Shown here: positions 27,814-32,734 of the stretch, in pieces | Layout: every line of letters starts with the position of its first letter | How positions within the stretch are numbered: position 1 is the first letter of the stretch | The notes under the pieces: generated by a model | The model's input: only the letters and a program-made list of their open reading frames with translations | Told to the model about the DNA's origin: nothing | Databases searched by the model: none | Translations under genes and position numbers: made by a program | Origin: Streptomyces sp. TLI_146 | GTDB taxonomy: Bacteria; Actinomycetota; Actinomycetes; Streptomycetales; Streptomycetaceae | DNA length: 64,000 nt | Assembly: GCF_002846415.1 (NCBI RefSeq) | Contig: NZ_PJMX01000001.1 | Coordinates: forward strand, 7,688,001 to 7,752,000 | Direction: 5' to 3'

Positions 27814-28569
27814 GTGAACAGACACATCGAGTTCGAGCGGCTGCACAACTTCCGTGACCTGGGCGGCTATCGCACCGAGGACGGCCTGGCGGTGCGATGG
27901 GGGCGGCTGTACCGCTCCGACTCGCTCGGCAAGCTCGCGGGCGAGGACTGGGAACGGTTCCTGGGCCTGGGCGTCCGCACCGTCATCGACCTGCGCTACC
28001 CGTGGGAGATCGAGGGCAAGGGCCGCGTCCCCGAGCACGCCTCGCTGGCGTACCGCAACCTCAGCATCGAGCATCGCCCGTACGACCAGGCGAGCCTCGG
28101 CGCGGACGTGGAGACCGGCCGGTTCCTCGCCGACCGCTTCCTGGAAGTCGCCCACGACGGGGTCGAGGAGCTGCGCGAGGCGCTGCGGACGATCGCGGCG
28201 CCCGACAGCGGGCCGCTCGTCTTCCACTGCGCCTCCGGCAAGGACCGCACGGGTCTGCTGGCGGCGCTCGTGCTGGCGCTGCTCGGGGTCCCCGAGGGCG
28301 TCATCGTCGAGGACTTCACCCTCACCGAGCTCGCCACGGACCGCCTGATCGCCGACTGGCGGGCCGCCAACCCCGGCCGCGAGATCACCTGGCCGGGCTA
28401 CGGCCGCGCCCCCGCCGCCATCATGCGGCTCTTCCTCGCCGACCTGAGTGCGCGGCACGGGTCGGTGCGCGGGTACGCGACCGAACTGCTCGGAGTGGAC
28501 GAGGAGTTGGTGGCCGCCCTGCGTGCCGGACTGCTGGAACCGGCGGTCGAGCCCGCCCCCGCCCCGTAA
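27814..28569 (+). CDS. Tyrosine/dual-specificity-type protein phosphatase
   Basis: 251 residues of the Y_phosphatase3 (MptpB/LMW-unrelated) family. FERLHNFRDLGGYRTEDG and GRLYRSDSLGKL open the fold; the P-loop HCASGKDRTGLLAAL carries the nucleophile Cys139 and Arg145 and the Lys of the HCxxGKDR subtype, which also hydrolyses phosphoinositides in some members. FTLTE and PAAIMRLFLADLSARHGSVR match the C-terminal helices. No signal peptide. The GTG at 27814 is chosen because homology begins at NRHIEFERL; AGGG lies eight bases upstream. It is monocistronic by distance. Confidence 0.88.
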   Translation: MNRHIEFERLHNFRDLGGYRTEDGLAVRWGRLYRSDSLGKLAGEDWERFLGLGVRTVIDLRYPWEIEGKGRVPEHASLAYRNLSIEHRPYDQASLGADVETGRFLADRFLEVAHDGVEELREALRTIAAPDSGPLVFHCASGKDRTGLLAALVLALLGVPEGVIVEDFTLTELATDRLIADWRAANPGREITWPGYGRAPAAIMRLFLADLSARHGSVRGYATELLGVDEELVAALRAGLLEPAVEPAPAP

Positions 28570-28664
28570 CCGAGGCGCGGGGACGCGGCCACGGGGAGCA
28601 CTTCTGTCCGCAACGCGCCACGCCTATGGTGGGTCGTCACCCGTGTCCGGCCAGAGGGGAACTG

Positions 28665-29681
28665 ATGGTGCGTAGGACCAGGATCATCCGGCACACCGCC
28701 GCGTTCGCGGCCGCCCTGCTGTTCGGCGCGGGGTTCGCCCCGGCCGCCGCCGCTGCCGAGGGCGGCCCGGCCGGGGCGAACCCGGCCGCCGCCCTCGACG
28801 CCTACTGGAGCCCCGCCCGGATGGCGGCCGCGCTCCCCGGTGACGCGGGCAAGGGCGCCGGGGCCGGGCCGTCGGCGCGGGCCGTGTCGCCCAGGCAGTC
28901 CACGGAGTCCACGCAGTCCACGGATCCCACCGAGGACGGGCCCCGGCCCGGCGAGTACATCCCGCCCAGCAGGAGCTTCGACGGCATCCCGCAGGCGGGC
29001 ACCTTCTTCTGGACCGACGCCAACGGCACCGGGCGCACCTGCAGCGGCTCGGTGGTCCGCAGCCCCGGCCACGACCTGGTGCTGAGCGCCGGGCACTGCC
29101 TGAAGGGCTACGCGGGGCCCTCGCCCCGGCGCCATCTCGCCTTCGTGCCGCAGTACCACGACGGGCTCAAGCCGTTCGGTGTCTTCCCCGTGGCGGCCGA
29201 CGGGGTCTACGTGCCACAGGAGTACTACGACCTGGGCGAGCACGCCGGAGCCGCGTACGACTTCGGCTTCGCGGTCACCCAGCCCAACCAGGACGGCACC
29301 CGGCTCCAGGACGCGGTGGGCGGCGTGCGCCTGCTCACCGGCACGGGCTACTACCACCTTCCGGTGCGCATGATCGGCTATCCGGGCAACGCGCAGAAGC
29401 CGCTGGAGTGCTGGAGCTGGACCACCAAGTGGGTCAGCGACGACCCGGCCGACCCGGGCACCTTCCCGCGCATCGCCTGCGACGCCTTCGTCGGCGGGAC
29501 CAGCGGCGGCCCGATGCTGGTGCCGCGGCCGGACGGCTGGGCGGTGATCGGGGTCATCGGCGGCTACCACACCGGCGGCAACACCCCCCAGGTCTCCTAC
29601 AGCGCCTACTTCGGCGCCGCCACCCGGGACCTCTACCGCGCCGCGGTCACCGGCGCCCCGCCGACGGGTCCGGCAGCCTGA
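28665..29681 (+). CDS. Secreted trypsin-like (S1) serine protease
   Basis: 338 residues with a signal peptide (IIRHTAAFAAALLFGAGFAP), a pro-region of about 75 residues ending in a short repeat (STESTQSTDPTE, from imperfect 9-base DNA repeats) and a chymotrypsin-fold domain. The catalytic triad is visible: His144 (LSAGHCLKG), Asp199 (AAYDFGFAV) and Ser280 (GGTSGGPM). TFFWTDANGTGRTCSGSVV is the start of the mature enzyme. The ATG follows GAGGGGA by five bases. Related to V8/glutamyl-endopeptidase-like trypsins of actinomycetes; substrate specificity cannot be read from the sequence. Confidence 0.92.
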   Translation: MVRRTRIIRHTAAFAAALLFGAGFAPAAAAAEGGPAGANPAAALDAYWSPARMAAALPGDAGKGAGAGPSARAVSPRQSTESTQSTDPTEDGPRPGEYIPPSRSFDGIPQAGTFFWTDANGTGRTCSGSVVRSPGHDLVLSAGHCLKGYAGPSPRRHLAFVPQYHDGLKPFGVFPVAADGVYVPQEYYDLGEHAGAAYDFGFAVTQPNQDGTRLQDAVGGVRLLTGTGYYHLPVRMIGYPGNAQKPLECWSWTTKWVSDDPADPGTFPRIACDAFVGGTSGGPMLVPRPDGWAVIGVIGGYHTGGNTPQVSYSAYFGAATRDLYRAAVTGAPPTGPAA

Positions 29682-29996: not shown

Positions 29997-30264
29997 GAAA
30001 CTCACCCCTTCCCGACCGGGTGGGTGCTCGCTCTTCGGCGCACCGGTCACTCCCGGCCGCATCCACCTCAAGCGTCTCGCTTAACCGCCGGTACCACAAC
30101 GCGAGGGATCCCGCACGGCGGCCGGAAGGCTCATTCGGACGGGTGCATTCCGGGGTGCGCGGGCCGTCGTACAAAATGAGGGCCGAGTTCCCGTTATCCC
30201 CGTGTCCGCCAGGGGTCTCCGAACGACGGGAGCGTACGGACGACGCCAGCGGGTGAGGGAGCAG

Positions 30265-31746
30265 ATGCACAGGGACAGTACGTCCATGCCGGAGCTGGTG
30301 GGCGCCGCGCGGACCGGCGACGCACGGGCCCAGGAGCGGCTGGTCTCCGACTACCTCCCGCTCGTCTACAACGTGGTCGGCCGCGCCATGGACGGGCACG
30401 CCGACGTCGACGACGTCGTGCAGGAGACCATGTTCCACGCCCTGGAGGGGCTCGACGGGCTGCGCGAGCCGTCCCGGTTCCGGTCCTGGCTGATCGCCAT
30501 CGCGATGAACCAGATACGCCACCGCTGGCGGGCCCAGCAGTACACGACCGCGACGCCCCCCGAGCAGCTGGCCGAGGCGGCCGAGCCGGAACCGGACTTC
30601 GTGGACCTCACCATCCTGCGCCTGGGACTGTCCGGGCAGCGCCGCGAGGTGGCCGAGGCGACCCGCTGGCTCGACGAGAGCGACCGCGAACTGCTCGCCC
30701 TGTGGTGGCAGGAGGCGGCGGGCGAGCTCACCCGCGCCGAGCTCGCCGAGGCGATGGCCCTCACCCCGCAGCACGCCGCCGTACGCGTCCAGCGCATGAA
30801 GGCCCAGCTGGAGGTCGGCCGGATCGTGGTGCGGGCGCTCGCCGCCCGGCCGCTCTGCGACGAGCTGGCCCGGACCGTCGCCGGGTGGGACGGCCGCCCC
30901 GCCCCCGTGTGGCGCAAGCGGATCGCCCGCCACACCCGCGACTGCCGTACCTGCTCGGGCCGGGGCGCGGGCCTGGTGCCCGCCGAGGGCCTGCTCGCCG
31001 GTCTCGCCCTGCTCGTGCCGTTGTACGGGGCCGCCCGCTTCGTCCCAGGCGCCCGCCTCGCCCCGGTCGCGTCCACGGCGCCGCTGCCGGGGAGCCCCGC
31101 CCCGGGCCCGGCCACCCCGGCGAAGCCGCGCGCGTACGTGGTCGGGGGCGCCCTCGCCGTCGCCGTCGTCCTCGGGATCCTGGCCGTCCTGCTGTGGCCC
31201 GACCCGCGTCCCGAGGCGAAGCCCGCCGCACCCGTGGTGCCGCGGGCCACCGTGACGTCCGCCGCGCCGACCCCCTCCGCCACTCCCGTACCGCAGCCGA
31301 CGAAGGCGAGCCCGTCGCCCAAGGCGACCCCCAAGCCCGTCCGGCCCACGCCGACCGCCGCCACCCCCGAGCAGCGGCTGCTGCGGCTGGTCAACAGCCG
31401 CCGTGGCGCGGCCGGTTGCGCACCGCTGCGCATGGACCCCCGGCTGACGACGGCGGCGGTCCGGCACGCCCGGGACATGGTGGCCCGCCACTACTACGAC
31501 CACGCGAGCCCCGAGGGGCAGCACGCCGACGCCCGGATGCGGGCCACCGGGTACGCCGTGGGGGCCTGGGCGGAGAACCTGGACCGGGGGACGGCCGACC
31601 CGGCCGCGATCGTCGACGACTGGACGGACGGCGCGATCCACCAGCAGAACATGCTCGACTGCTCATACCGGGACACGGGCGTGGCCGCGGTGCCCGGCCC
31701 CGACGGCACGGTGTGGGTGCAGGACTTCGCGGGTTCGCCGTCCTGA
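30265..31746 (+). CDS. Sigma factor fused to zinc finger, membrane helix and extracytoplasmic CAP domain
   Basis: 493 residues in one polypeptide. Region 2 of a sigma-70/ECF factor spans about residues 8-95 (RLVSDYLPLVYNVVGRAM, DVDDVVQETMFHALEGL, FRSWLIAIAMNQIRHRWR) and region 4 about 130-190 (LTRAELAEAMALTPQHAAVR). Next comes an anti-sigma-like zinc motif, HTRDCRTC, His223-x3-Cys227-x2-Cys230. A transmembrane helix (about 292-313, YVVGGALAVAVVLGILAVLL), a Pro/Thr linker and a CAP/SCP-PR1 domain (about 369-491: HYYDHASPEGQHADARM, AENLDRG) follow outside. I infer a one-protein signal device: the outer domain senses, the zinc finger restrains the sigma part. ATG 30265 follows GAGGGA; earlier GTGs are possible. 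Confidence 0.88.
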   Translation: MHRDSTSMPELVGAARTGDARAQERLVSDYLPLVYNVVGRAMDGHADVDDVVQETMFHALEGLDGLREPSRFRSWLIAIAMNQIRHRWRAQQYTTATPPEQLAEAAEPEPDFVDLTILRLGLSGQRREVAEATRWLDESDRELLALWWQEAAGELTRAELAEAMALTPQHAAVRVQRMKAQLEVGRIVVRALAARPLCDELARTVAGWDGRPAPVWRKRIARHTRDCRTCSGRGAGLVPAEGLLAGLALLVPLYGAARFVPGARLAPVASTAPLPGSPAPGPATPAKPRAYVVGGALAVAVVLGILAVLLWPDPRPEAKPAAPVVPRATVTSAAPTPSATPVPQPTKASPSPKATPKPVRPTPTAATPEQRLLRLVNSRRGAAGCAPLRMDPRLTTAAVRHARDMVARHYYDHASPEGQHADARMRATGYAVGAWAENLDRGTADPAAIVDDWTDGAIHQQNMLDCSYRDTGVAAVPGPDGTVWVQDFAGSPS

Positions 31747-31773
31747 GTCGGCCCACACCGCGCCGGGCTCGGC

Positions 31774-32625
31774 TCAGCTGCCGAAGTTCTGCACCCACCA
31801 CGGGCCGTTGCCGCTCAGGTTCACGCCCACGCCGATGTCCTTGAAGCCGCAGTCCAGGAGGTTGGCGCGGTGGCCCGGGCTCTTCATCCAGTCGCGCATC
31901 GCGTCGGCCGGGCTCTTCGGACCCCGGTGGATGTTCTCGCCCCACTTGTGCCAGTCGTATCCGGCGGCGCTCATACGGTCGCCCGCGTTGCGCCCCTCCG
32001 GGCTGTTGTGCTCGTAGTAGTTGCGCGCCGCCATGTCGTCGGCGTGCGCCTGGGCCGACGCGTTGAGGCGGCGGTCGGCCTTGAAGGGCGAGCAACCCGC
32101 CTTGGCGCGCTCGGCGTTGGCGAGATCCACGACCTGCTGGACGTACGCGGCGGCGGTGCCGGTCGGGGCGTTGTCGGTACGCGGCGGCGCGGTCCTGCGG
32201 GGCGCCTGGCCACCACCCGCGTGCCCCTTGGTCGTCGTGGTGCCCGTGCCCGTCCCCGCGCCGGTGCCCGGGTGCGTGGAGCCGGACGCGGGGGCGGTCC
32301 GGGTGGGCTTCGGCTTGGGGGACGCGGTCTTCGTGGGGGCGTCGGAGCGTATCGGCGAGGGCGAGGCGGACGGGGTGGCGGCGGCCGGGCCGGCGCCGGT
32401 GTCCAGGGGGTGCCCGGCGGGCGGGGCCGCCTGGGTGCGGACGGCCTCGGCGGGGTCGTCGGAGTGCGGCCACAGAAGCGCTCCGGCGACGGCGGCGACC
32501 GCCACGGTCCCGGCCACCGCGGTGCCGACGGCCTGCCGGGACCGCTGCCGGTGAGCGCGTCGGCGCCCGGCCCGGCCCTCGCTCGCCGCGGGCCGTACGT
32601 GGGGGTGGTCGTCGTGGTGCTGCAT
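31774..32625 (-). CDS. Membrane-anchored CAP/SCP-domain protein
   Basis: 283 residues: basic cytoplasmic N-terminus (GRAGRRRAHRQRSRQ), one transmembrane helix (AVGTAVAGTVAVAAVAGALL, about 31-50), a long Pro/Thr/Ser-rich wall-spanning linker (TKTASPKPKPTRTAP, GTGAGTGTGTTTTKG) and a C-terminal CAP domain (about 160-282: VQQVVDLANAERAKAGC, ARNYYEHNSPEGRNAGDRM, GENIHRGPKSP, GHRANLLDCGFKDIGVGV). The ATG at 32625 follows GGAG. It converges with the sigma-CAP fusion, whose CAP domain has the same order of motifs, so the two likely work at the same place. CAP domains bind sterols, lipids or glycans in other organisms; the ligand here is unknown. Confidence 0.88.
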   Translation of the reverse strand: MQHHDDHPHVRPAASEGRAGRRRAHRQRSRQAVGTAVAGTVAVAAVAGALLWPHSDDPAEAVRTQAAPPAGHPLDTGAGPAAATPSASPSPIRSDAPTKTASPKPKPTRTAPASGSTHPGTGAGTGTGTTTTKGHAGGGQAPRRTAPPRTDNAPTGTAAAYVQQVVDLANAERAKAGCSPFKADRRLNASAQAHADDMAARNYYEHNSPEGRNAGDRMSAAGYDWHKWGENIHRGPKSPADAMRDWMKSPGHRANLLDCGFKDIGVGVNLSGNGPWWVQNFGS

Positions 32626-32734
32626 GGTGCTCCGCTCTCTGTCCGGTGCTGCCGGGGTGTCCGGCACCTGGGAGAGCCGGGGGCGGCGGAGCCATAACAG
32701 TTTCTCCGGGCGTGACCTGGGCCACAAGCAACCG

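Follow-up and report, generated by a model that had tools for sequence, protein, structure and literature searches.

An ECF sigma factor joined in one chain to a zinc segment, a membrane helix and a CAP domain in Streptomyces, and a promoter-like element common to it and a neighbouring CAP gene

The window analysed here is a stretch of 64,000 nucleotides from the genome of Streptomyces sp. TLI_146 (8.95 Mb in 2 contigs). Our subject is a gene within it that encodes an extracytoplasmic function (ECF) sigma factor, a zinc-binding segment, a transmembrane (TM) helix, a linker and a CAP domain in a single chain of 493 residues, together with the gene that converges on it, which encodes a second CAP protein. 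The fusion belongs to a conserved family and is more than a chance join. We consider it probable on balance that it is a one-protein signalling system, namely a tethered, zinc-silenced and autoregulated sigma factor with a CAP sensor head, which drives the adjacent CAP gene. The fusion itself, the invariance of its zinc ligands, the sequence signs of an outward CAP domain, the exchangeable heads, the linkage to a CAP gene and the common promoter-like element are observed directly. What is new here is the promoter-like element shared by the fusion and its CAP partner. Coordinates are collected in Table 1.

Domain structure of the fusion protein

The reading frame of the fusion has no internal stops, and what looks by eye like a plausible ribosome-binding site lies ahead of its ATG. 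The protein is 95% identical to a relative in S. melanogenes (L010). The N-terminal part is an ECF sigma factor of the sigma-70 family, since TIGR02937 (sigma70-ECF) matches residues 22–183, across regions 2 and 4, with an E value of 6.8e-21 and 74.6 bits against a cut-off of 42.9. Region 2 resembles 4lup_A in a structure search (Z 14.0, rmsd 1.9, 91 residues aligned). The region 4 stretch is covered by TIGR02937 and by helices in the AlphaFold prediction; the Pfam scan of the fusion gave no significant match to Sigma70_r4, and only sub-threshold helix-turn-helix models. The C-terminal part is a member of the CAP superfamily, with 74.6 bits to PF00188 (cut-off 21.1) and a CAP fold in the structure search, where BB0689 (4d53_A) aligns over 125 residues with Z 20.0 and rmsd 1.7. 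TIGR02909 (spore_YkwD) also matches the fusion, but under its cut-off. The structure searches covered residues 6–98 and 364–491 only, and their matches were ECF sigma factors and CAP proteins. The initial annotation had described just such a 493-residue frame, with sigma regions, the sequence HTRDCRTC, a TM helix, a linker and a CAP domain, and had called for a domain search over the whole protein; the frame, TIGR02937, Pfam and the hydropathy all agree with it.

Conservation was counted over 75 aligned members, excluding the truncated or frameshifted copies L032, L048, L053, L055, L061, L066 and L083. His413, Glu437 and His459 of the CAP head are invariant in all 75. So are the four candidate zinc ligands: HTRDCRTC occupies residues 223–230, and its His223, Cys227 and Cys230 join with Cys198 to give C-x24-H-x3-C-x2-C. 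The motif of the ZAS domain is (H/C)-x24/25-H-x3-C-x2-C, and the spacing in the fusion fits this motif. The same Cys-His-Cys-Cys set is present in each of the 88 rows of our wider table of module copies.

The fusion has one clear TM helix, and a variable stretch separates it from a further helix at residues 237–250, whose hydrophobicity would suffice for a second TM helix. Because this helix is conserved like the sigma part, with Pro239 invariant and Glu241 present in 69/75 members, we prefer to read it as a putative anti-sigma helix. In 74/75 members the 20 residues ahead of the TM helix carry a higher net charge than those after it (means +7.5 and −1.7). Two cysteines of the CAP domain, Cys385 and Cys466, are both found in 70 rows, both missing in 5, and never found singly; the five rows belong to one clade, and their joint loss therefore counts as one event. 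Taken together, the charge pattern and the paired cysteines favour an arrangement with the N-terminus inside and the CAP domain outside. The CAP domain thus probably faces outward, in line with the initial annotation.

AlphaFold2, run on an alignment of 57 sequences picked from the window protein and 73 listed ones, gives a confident sigma-plus-zinc part and a confident CAP head joined by disordered linkers, with a mean predicted local distance difference test score (pLDDT) of 77.9 and a predicted template modelling score (pTM) of 0.44.

A family with exchangeable heads

Relatives of the fusion are encoded in 288 stretches of the GTDB species genomes, of which the best 80 were kept. Two further copies of the sigma/zinc module lie elsewhere in the source genome, one with a CAP head and 41.7% identity to the window fusion (L004) and one with an AbfB head (L114), and an ECF52-like protein whose head is NPCBM (L127) is encoded there as well. 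A count of frames of at least 440 residues, read from stop to stop, found 75 copies of the module in 47 of 61 Streptomyces genomes, the source genome included, and in 74 of the 75 the frame runs for at least 185 residues beyond the zinc motif. In a sample of the phylum, where only six candidates were scored per genome, the module is present in at least 11 of 396 genomes. Ten of these are Streptomyces; the remaining one is a distant relative whose copy has no head. A distant relative outside Streptomyces (L185/L234, 36% identical) has the zinc ligands and the hydrophobic stretch, followed by a tail that is only rich in Ser, Thr and Pro.

Among 84 distinct module copies (the 88 table rows less 4 duplicates) the head is CAP in 52, AbfB in 9, an unnamed domain in 12, a beta-helix in 4 and a glycosyl hydrolase core in 1. 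Six are unclassified: L150 is inverted, in L174 the frame leaves the CAP domain, L185 is headless, L202 meets a contig end, L211 is masked and L229 ends early. CAP and AbfB heads were sorted by blastp and the others by eye, with L226 called a beta-helix by its likeness to L225; Pfam was run on 10 copies, L114, L127 and one C-terminus. The unnamed head is so called because two members tested gave no significant Pfam match. It is a conserved C-terminal region of about 150 residues (HRGDSVTLSGQGYVLVRWQI...), found in L209, L210, L212–L219, L183 and L189.

The heads largely track the clades of the sigma module (FastTree, 158 tips, root at L127). The CAP-headed copies fall together in a group of 128 tips (support 0.884), and the AbfB-headed L196 branches beside it. 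The window clade consists of 24 tips (0.809), 23 of which group with support 0.955. The initial annotation would have been overturned by a frameshift, or by sigma and CAP parts that are always separate in relatives; a frameshift or assembly join is ruled out as the origin of the fusion, which is the rule across the family. In L053 and L237, two copies on one contig, the linker is directly followed by the fusion's own CAP part on the opposite strand, as an inversion or a misassembly.

The converging CAP gene

The partner is a membrane-anchored CAP protein without a sigma part, as had been noted from the sequence. It consists of a short basic N-terminus, a TM helix, a linker and the CAP domain. 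A survey of genomes for the fusion and an adjacent CAP gene had been suggested at the outset, and it supports the proposed tie between the two: of the 21 window-clade loci that could be assessed, 17 have a stand-alone CAP gene linked to the fusion, compared with 0 of 64 loci of other clades (flanks of up to 5 kb), and most of the partners examined have the fusion's promoter-like element. The 21 loci exclude L032 and L048, which meet contig ends, and L053/L237, where the inverted CAP is of the fusion's own type on one contig. The linked genes are of two CAP types and are convergent in 11 cases, divergent in 5 and tandem upstream in 1. An order that shifts while the neighbourhood is retained argues for a functional tie between fusion and CAP gene.

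In a tree of CAP domains, the fused heads of the window clade group together with support 0.998, L241 and L242 excepted, and are separate from the partner CAPs. The tree lacks the true partner of L061, the tip named "L061_partner" being L061's own CAP domain in another frame. An origin of the partner by local duplication of the fused CAP is unsupported, given that fused heads and partners fall in separate clades.

A promoter-like element ahead of both genes

A two-block element, YGTTRTS-N16-STCTCC, was found in the aligned upstream regions of the fusions together with that of the window partner, and the pattern was written from these same sequences. In the window clade it is present with at most one mismatch in 18 of 23 fusion upstreams (shuffle mean 0.02) and in 12 of 16 partner upstreams (shuffle mean 0), the seventeenth partner upstream, that of L009, being off its contig. 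Among the partner upstreams that were unseen when the pattern was written, 10 of 15 match it exactly. In L062 the element stands before both genes, but with a 17-bp spacer. The other CAP clade has GTTAT-N18-TCTCC, with the same geometry, in 51 of 64 upstreams, where the best dyad in shuffled sequences reached 4–5.

Searched over the source genome, the relaxed pattern has three matches, which are the fusion, the partner and a site on the small contig, within a frame that by eye looks RHS-like; the reversed control has one. Sites within two mismatches of the exact core TGTTATC-N16-GTCTCC number 59 there, compared with 18 for the reversed control.

The exact core across the genus

The exact core has 74 matches in 63 of 150 genomes, and its reversed control has none. 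The genes that follow are 45 members of this sigma family (26 read from loci and 19 assigned by the coordinates of the 61-genome module search), 4 stand-alone CAP genes, 14 PATR-like genes, 10 alginate-lyase-like genes and 1 C1 peptidase gene. Four downstream genes were run against Pfam (L325, L326, L318 and L305) and the remainder were sorted by likeness; L325 matches alginate lyase with 41 bits (cut-off 22.2), and the match of L326 to PATR, at 25.1 bits, lies below the cut-off of 27. Three of the four core-driven CAP genes (in G018, G060 and G039) are on contigs other than those of their genomes' module copies, and the genome of the fourth, G480, was outside the module search. Three of them group with the window partner type (0.994) and one with the second partner type (1.0).

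The PATR-like targets are secreted proteins (L246, L251, L253, L258, L269, L307, L312, L314, L319, L322, L324, L326, L327 and L329). In 14/14 of their genes the first start codon is a GTG that lies 5–6 nucleotides past the GTCTCC block. This spacing agrees with a −10 element whose transcript has no leader, and would settle which way the element points; the PATR-like targets are thus probably made as leaderless transcripts of the same sigma family. The alginate-lyase-like targets have signals of the twin-arginine translocation type (L255, L261, L273, L275, L306, L309, L317, L320, L325 and L328). One of these genes, L261 in genome G304, directly precedes an unnamed-head sigma fusion (L183). The papain-like (C1) peptidase gene, L318, is a single case, about 110 nucleotides downstream of the exact core.

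The exact core occurs in 0 of 14 module-free genomes and in 32 of 47 genomes with the module, a co-occurrence with a built-in component, since 45 of the 74 matches lie ahead of the module genes. An unnamed-head copy is present in 10 of the 61 genomes, and these include all seven in which PATR-like or lyase-like genes are core-driven (Fisher 2.8e-7). The unnamed head therefore tracks the type of target, which suggests that the head predicts the output, and that the family's own sigma factors are the likely readers of the element. Homology of the unnamed head to the lyase-like or PATR-like targets was looked for and none was found. It follows that a fold shared by sensor and product holds for CAP alone.

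Table 1. Features of the fusion gene, its CAP partner and their upstream elements (window coordinates)
Feature	Position	Strand	Basis
Promoter-like element of fusion gene, CGTTATC-N16-GTCTCC	30192..30220 (G000:C1:7718192-7718220)	+	last block ends 44 nt before ATG
Fusion gene, ECF sigma / zinc finger / TM / CAP, 493 aa	30265..31746	+	continuous frame, domain profiles
Sigma region 2, residues 26–92	30340..30540	+	Pfam PF04542 (Sigma70_r2), E 3.7e-15; 4lup_A
Sigma region 4, about residues 132–183	30658..30813	+	TIGR02937 (22–183); helices in AlphaFold2 model
ZAS-like zinc motif, C198-x24-H223-x3-C227-x2-C230	30856..30954	+	invariant 75/75; CHCC in 88/88 rows
Conserved hydrophobic helix LVPxEGLLAGLAL, residues 237–250	30973..31014	+	candidate anti-sigma helix or second membrane helix
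TM helix, about residues 291–311, probably N-in/C-out	31135..31197	+	hydropathy 2.88; charge pattern 74/75
Pro/Ser/Thr-rich linker	31198..31365	+	sequence; low pLDDT
CAP head (probably outer), residues 373–488	31381..31728	+	PF00188, E 1.5e-20; 4d53_A
Partner gene, membrane-anchored CAP protein without sigma part, 283 aa	31774..32625	-	frame, PF00188
Partner CAP domain, residues 167–281	31783..32127	-	PF00188, E 6.6e-25
Partner TM helix, about residues 33–52	32470..32529	-	by eye
Promoter-like element of partner, TGTTATG-N16-CTCTCC	32671..32699 (G000:C1:7720671-7720699)	-	last block ends 45 nt before ATG; two mismatches from exact core

Upstream of the fusion, at 28400–29681 on the forward strand, is a gene that by eye encodes a secreted trypsin-like protease.

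A possible mechanism and its alternatives

In the mechanism that we propose, the ECF sigma part would lie in the cytoplasm, tethered to the membrane and kept inactive by its built-in ZAS-type zinc-finger anti-sigma segment, and the CAP domain would act as the outer sensor head. A ligand or an envelope change at the CAP head would alter or cut the tether and make the sigma factor available to RNA polymerase. Freed or rearranged, it would then read the element as a −35 block YGTTRTS, a 16-bp spacer and a −10 block STCTCC. Use of the element at its own gene would give positive autoregulation, and use at the neighbouring gene would produce the membrane-anchored CAP protein, so that the sensing head and the product have the same fold. 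The stand-alone CAP protein might serve as the response, as a co-receptor or as a titrating feedback arm. Four parts of this scheme are inferred: reading of the element by this sigma factor, inhibition of the factor by the zinc segment, ligand binding by the CAP domain, and the manner of the sigma factor's release.

Several results weigh against this proposal. The initial annotation took the C-terminal extension to be a built-in anti-sigma factor, and this stands as far as the zinc segment is of the anti-sigma type; it does not extend to Pfam zf-HC2 (PF13490), which has no match to the sigma/zinc part at E values up to 10, and a search of the source genome with the same profile gave 8 matches with the fusion not among them. 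The AlphaFold2 model, which had been suggested as a check on contacts between sigma factor and zinc segment, has confident domains but, at its pTM, no usable contact evidence. If the helix at 237–250 were a second TM helix, this would place the CAP domain inside the cell, and the topology argument from the cysteine pair depends on a single clade of five rows. One copy, L229, stops 57 residues after an intact zinc motif, with neither TM helix nor head. Four of the 21 assessable loci (L023, L054, L241 and L242) have no linked CAP gene, and the separate clades of fused heads and partner CAPs mean that a shared ligand is not implied by close descent.

The element too has its exceptions, being absent from the fusion upstreams of L054, L241 and L242, from the partners of L058, L236 and L240, and from the stretch examined ahead of the AbfB-headed L114 (best 4 mismatches). 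The count for the relaxed pattern in the source genome is in part a product of its design, which was made to take in both window elements; across the 61 genomes the pattern is noisy, with about 226 matches against about 50 in the control, and it also occurs in module-free genomes. The exact core has no match in the source genome, where the fusion element is 1 of 2 one-mismatch sites and the partner element 1 of 57 two-mismatch sites.

Recognition of the element by the fusion's sigma factor is argued from association only, and the element stands ahead of both genes. It might therefore be read by another regulator, either a transcription factor or a different sigma factor, which controls both genes and has the fusion as a mere target. 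We regard this as quite unlikely, since unnamed-head copies predict core-driven lyase-like and PATR-like genes, the exact core follows the module across genomes (with the built-in part noted above), and the position of the GTG in the PATR-like genes is as expected for a −10 element before a leaderless start. An anchor or effector role for the outer CAP domain in the cell wall, with no sensing and with control of the sigma factor through its level, phosphorylation or the general activity of proteases, is also improbable. It would agree with the fact that no ligand for this CAP type emerged from the analysis, and with the reported phosphorylation of the related ECF52 protein SCO4117 (PMC5826349, as far as described there). 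The replacement of CAP by AbfB, a beta-helix, a glycosyl hydrolase core or an unnamed domain on one and the same module fits sensing better, as does the way in which one head type follows its regulon type. Rather unlikely, in our view, is a sigma factor that stays on its tether throughout and is switched there when the zinc segment changes conformation. Other ECF extensions are described as acting by conformational activation, and the same available account gives proteolysis as the expectation for ECF48, ECF52 and ECF53 (PMC8999054).

A wider version of the proposal is tentative, and may well not hold: the family would be one of plug-in sensors, in which the head predicts the regulon (CAP with membrane CAP proteins, the unnamed head with lyase-like and PATR-like proteins) through one promoter code, and in which the CAP sensor and its CAP product may bind the same ligand, the stand-alone protein titrating the signal in a homeostatic loop. 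The promoter code renders such a head-swapped sigma family testable, given that 73 of the 74 exact matches lie before four kinds of gene. CAP domains occur in all 61 of the sampled Streptomyces genomes. To our knowledge, the function of bacterial CAP domains is largely unknown. The CAP domain in the window appears to be wired through one polypeptide and one specific promoter to the production of another CAP protein, and would offer a genetic read-out for what such a domain detects.

Comparison with known systems

A sigma factor, zinc finger and TM helix fused as a built-in anti-sigma design have already been described for ECF48, ECF52 and ECF53 (PMC8999054, PMC5826349). The fusion has this design, with a sigma factor, a zinc finger, one or two TM helices and an outer domain in one chain. 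Proteolytic release is expected for all three groups (PMC8999054) and has been proposed for SCO4117 (PMC5826349), and some members of ECF52 and ECF53 are reported to carry glycosyl hydrolase or carbohydrate-binding domains (PMC10766802, PMC8999054). The available parts of these three accounts contain no CAP heads, no common element and no CAP partner. A sigma factor with a CAP head was also not found in literature searches, which did not reach the main ECF classification papers.

The ECF52 protein SCO4117 of Streptomyces coelicolor, as described, resembles the fusion in having an ECF sigma factor, a zinc finger, a TM helix, a proline-rich linker and an outer domain in one chain (PMC5826349). 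It differs in its head: by Pfam the window fusion carries CAP and no NPCBM, and thus lacks the outer domain of ECF52. The motif reported for SCO4117, CSGYN-17-SRHA, also differs from the window element (PMC5826349, in the part available), and the sigma part of the window fusion has no blastp match to the ECF52-like protein of its own genome (L127) at E 1e-3. ECF53 is described, in the accounts available, as having a fused zinc finger and TM helix, with glycosyl hydrolase or carbohydrate-binding domains in some ECF52 and ECF53 members (PMC8999054, PMC10766802), and glycosyl hydrolase, AbfB and beta-helix heads occur in the window family too. The window family may be ECF53, a likeness drawn from published descriptions of the group.

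The SigI/RsgI system of Clostridium thermocellum, from what is described, is alike in combining an autoregulated sigma factor, a membrane anti-sigma factor with an outer sensory module, and promoters before secreted enzymes (PMC6056542, PMC12203970). There the sigma and anti-sigma factors are separate proteins of one operon, whereas the window fusion unites a ZAS-type motif and a sigma factor of the ECF type in a single chain, its one frame taking the place of a separate rsgI-type gene. The CAP fold of the head is common to bacterial CAP/SCP proteins of the YkwD type and to BB0689 of Borrelia burgdorferi; unlike these, the CAP domain in the window is joined to a sigma factor.

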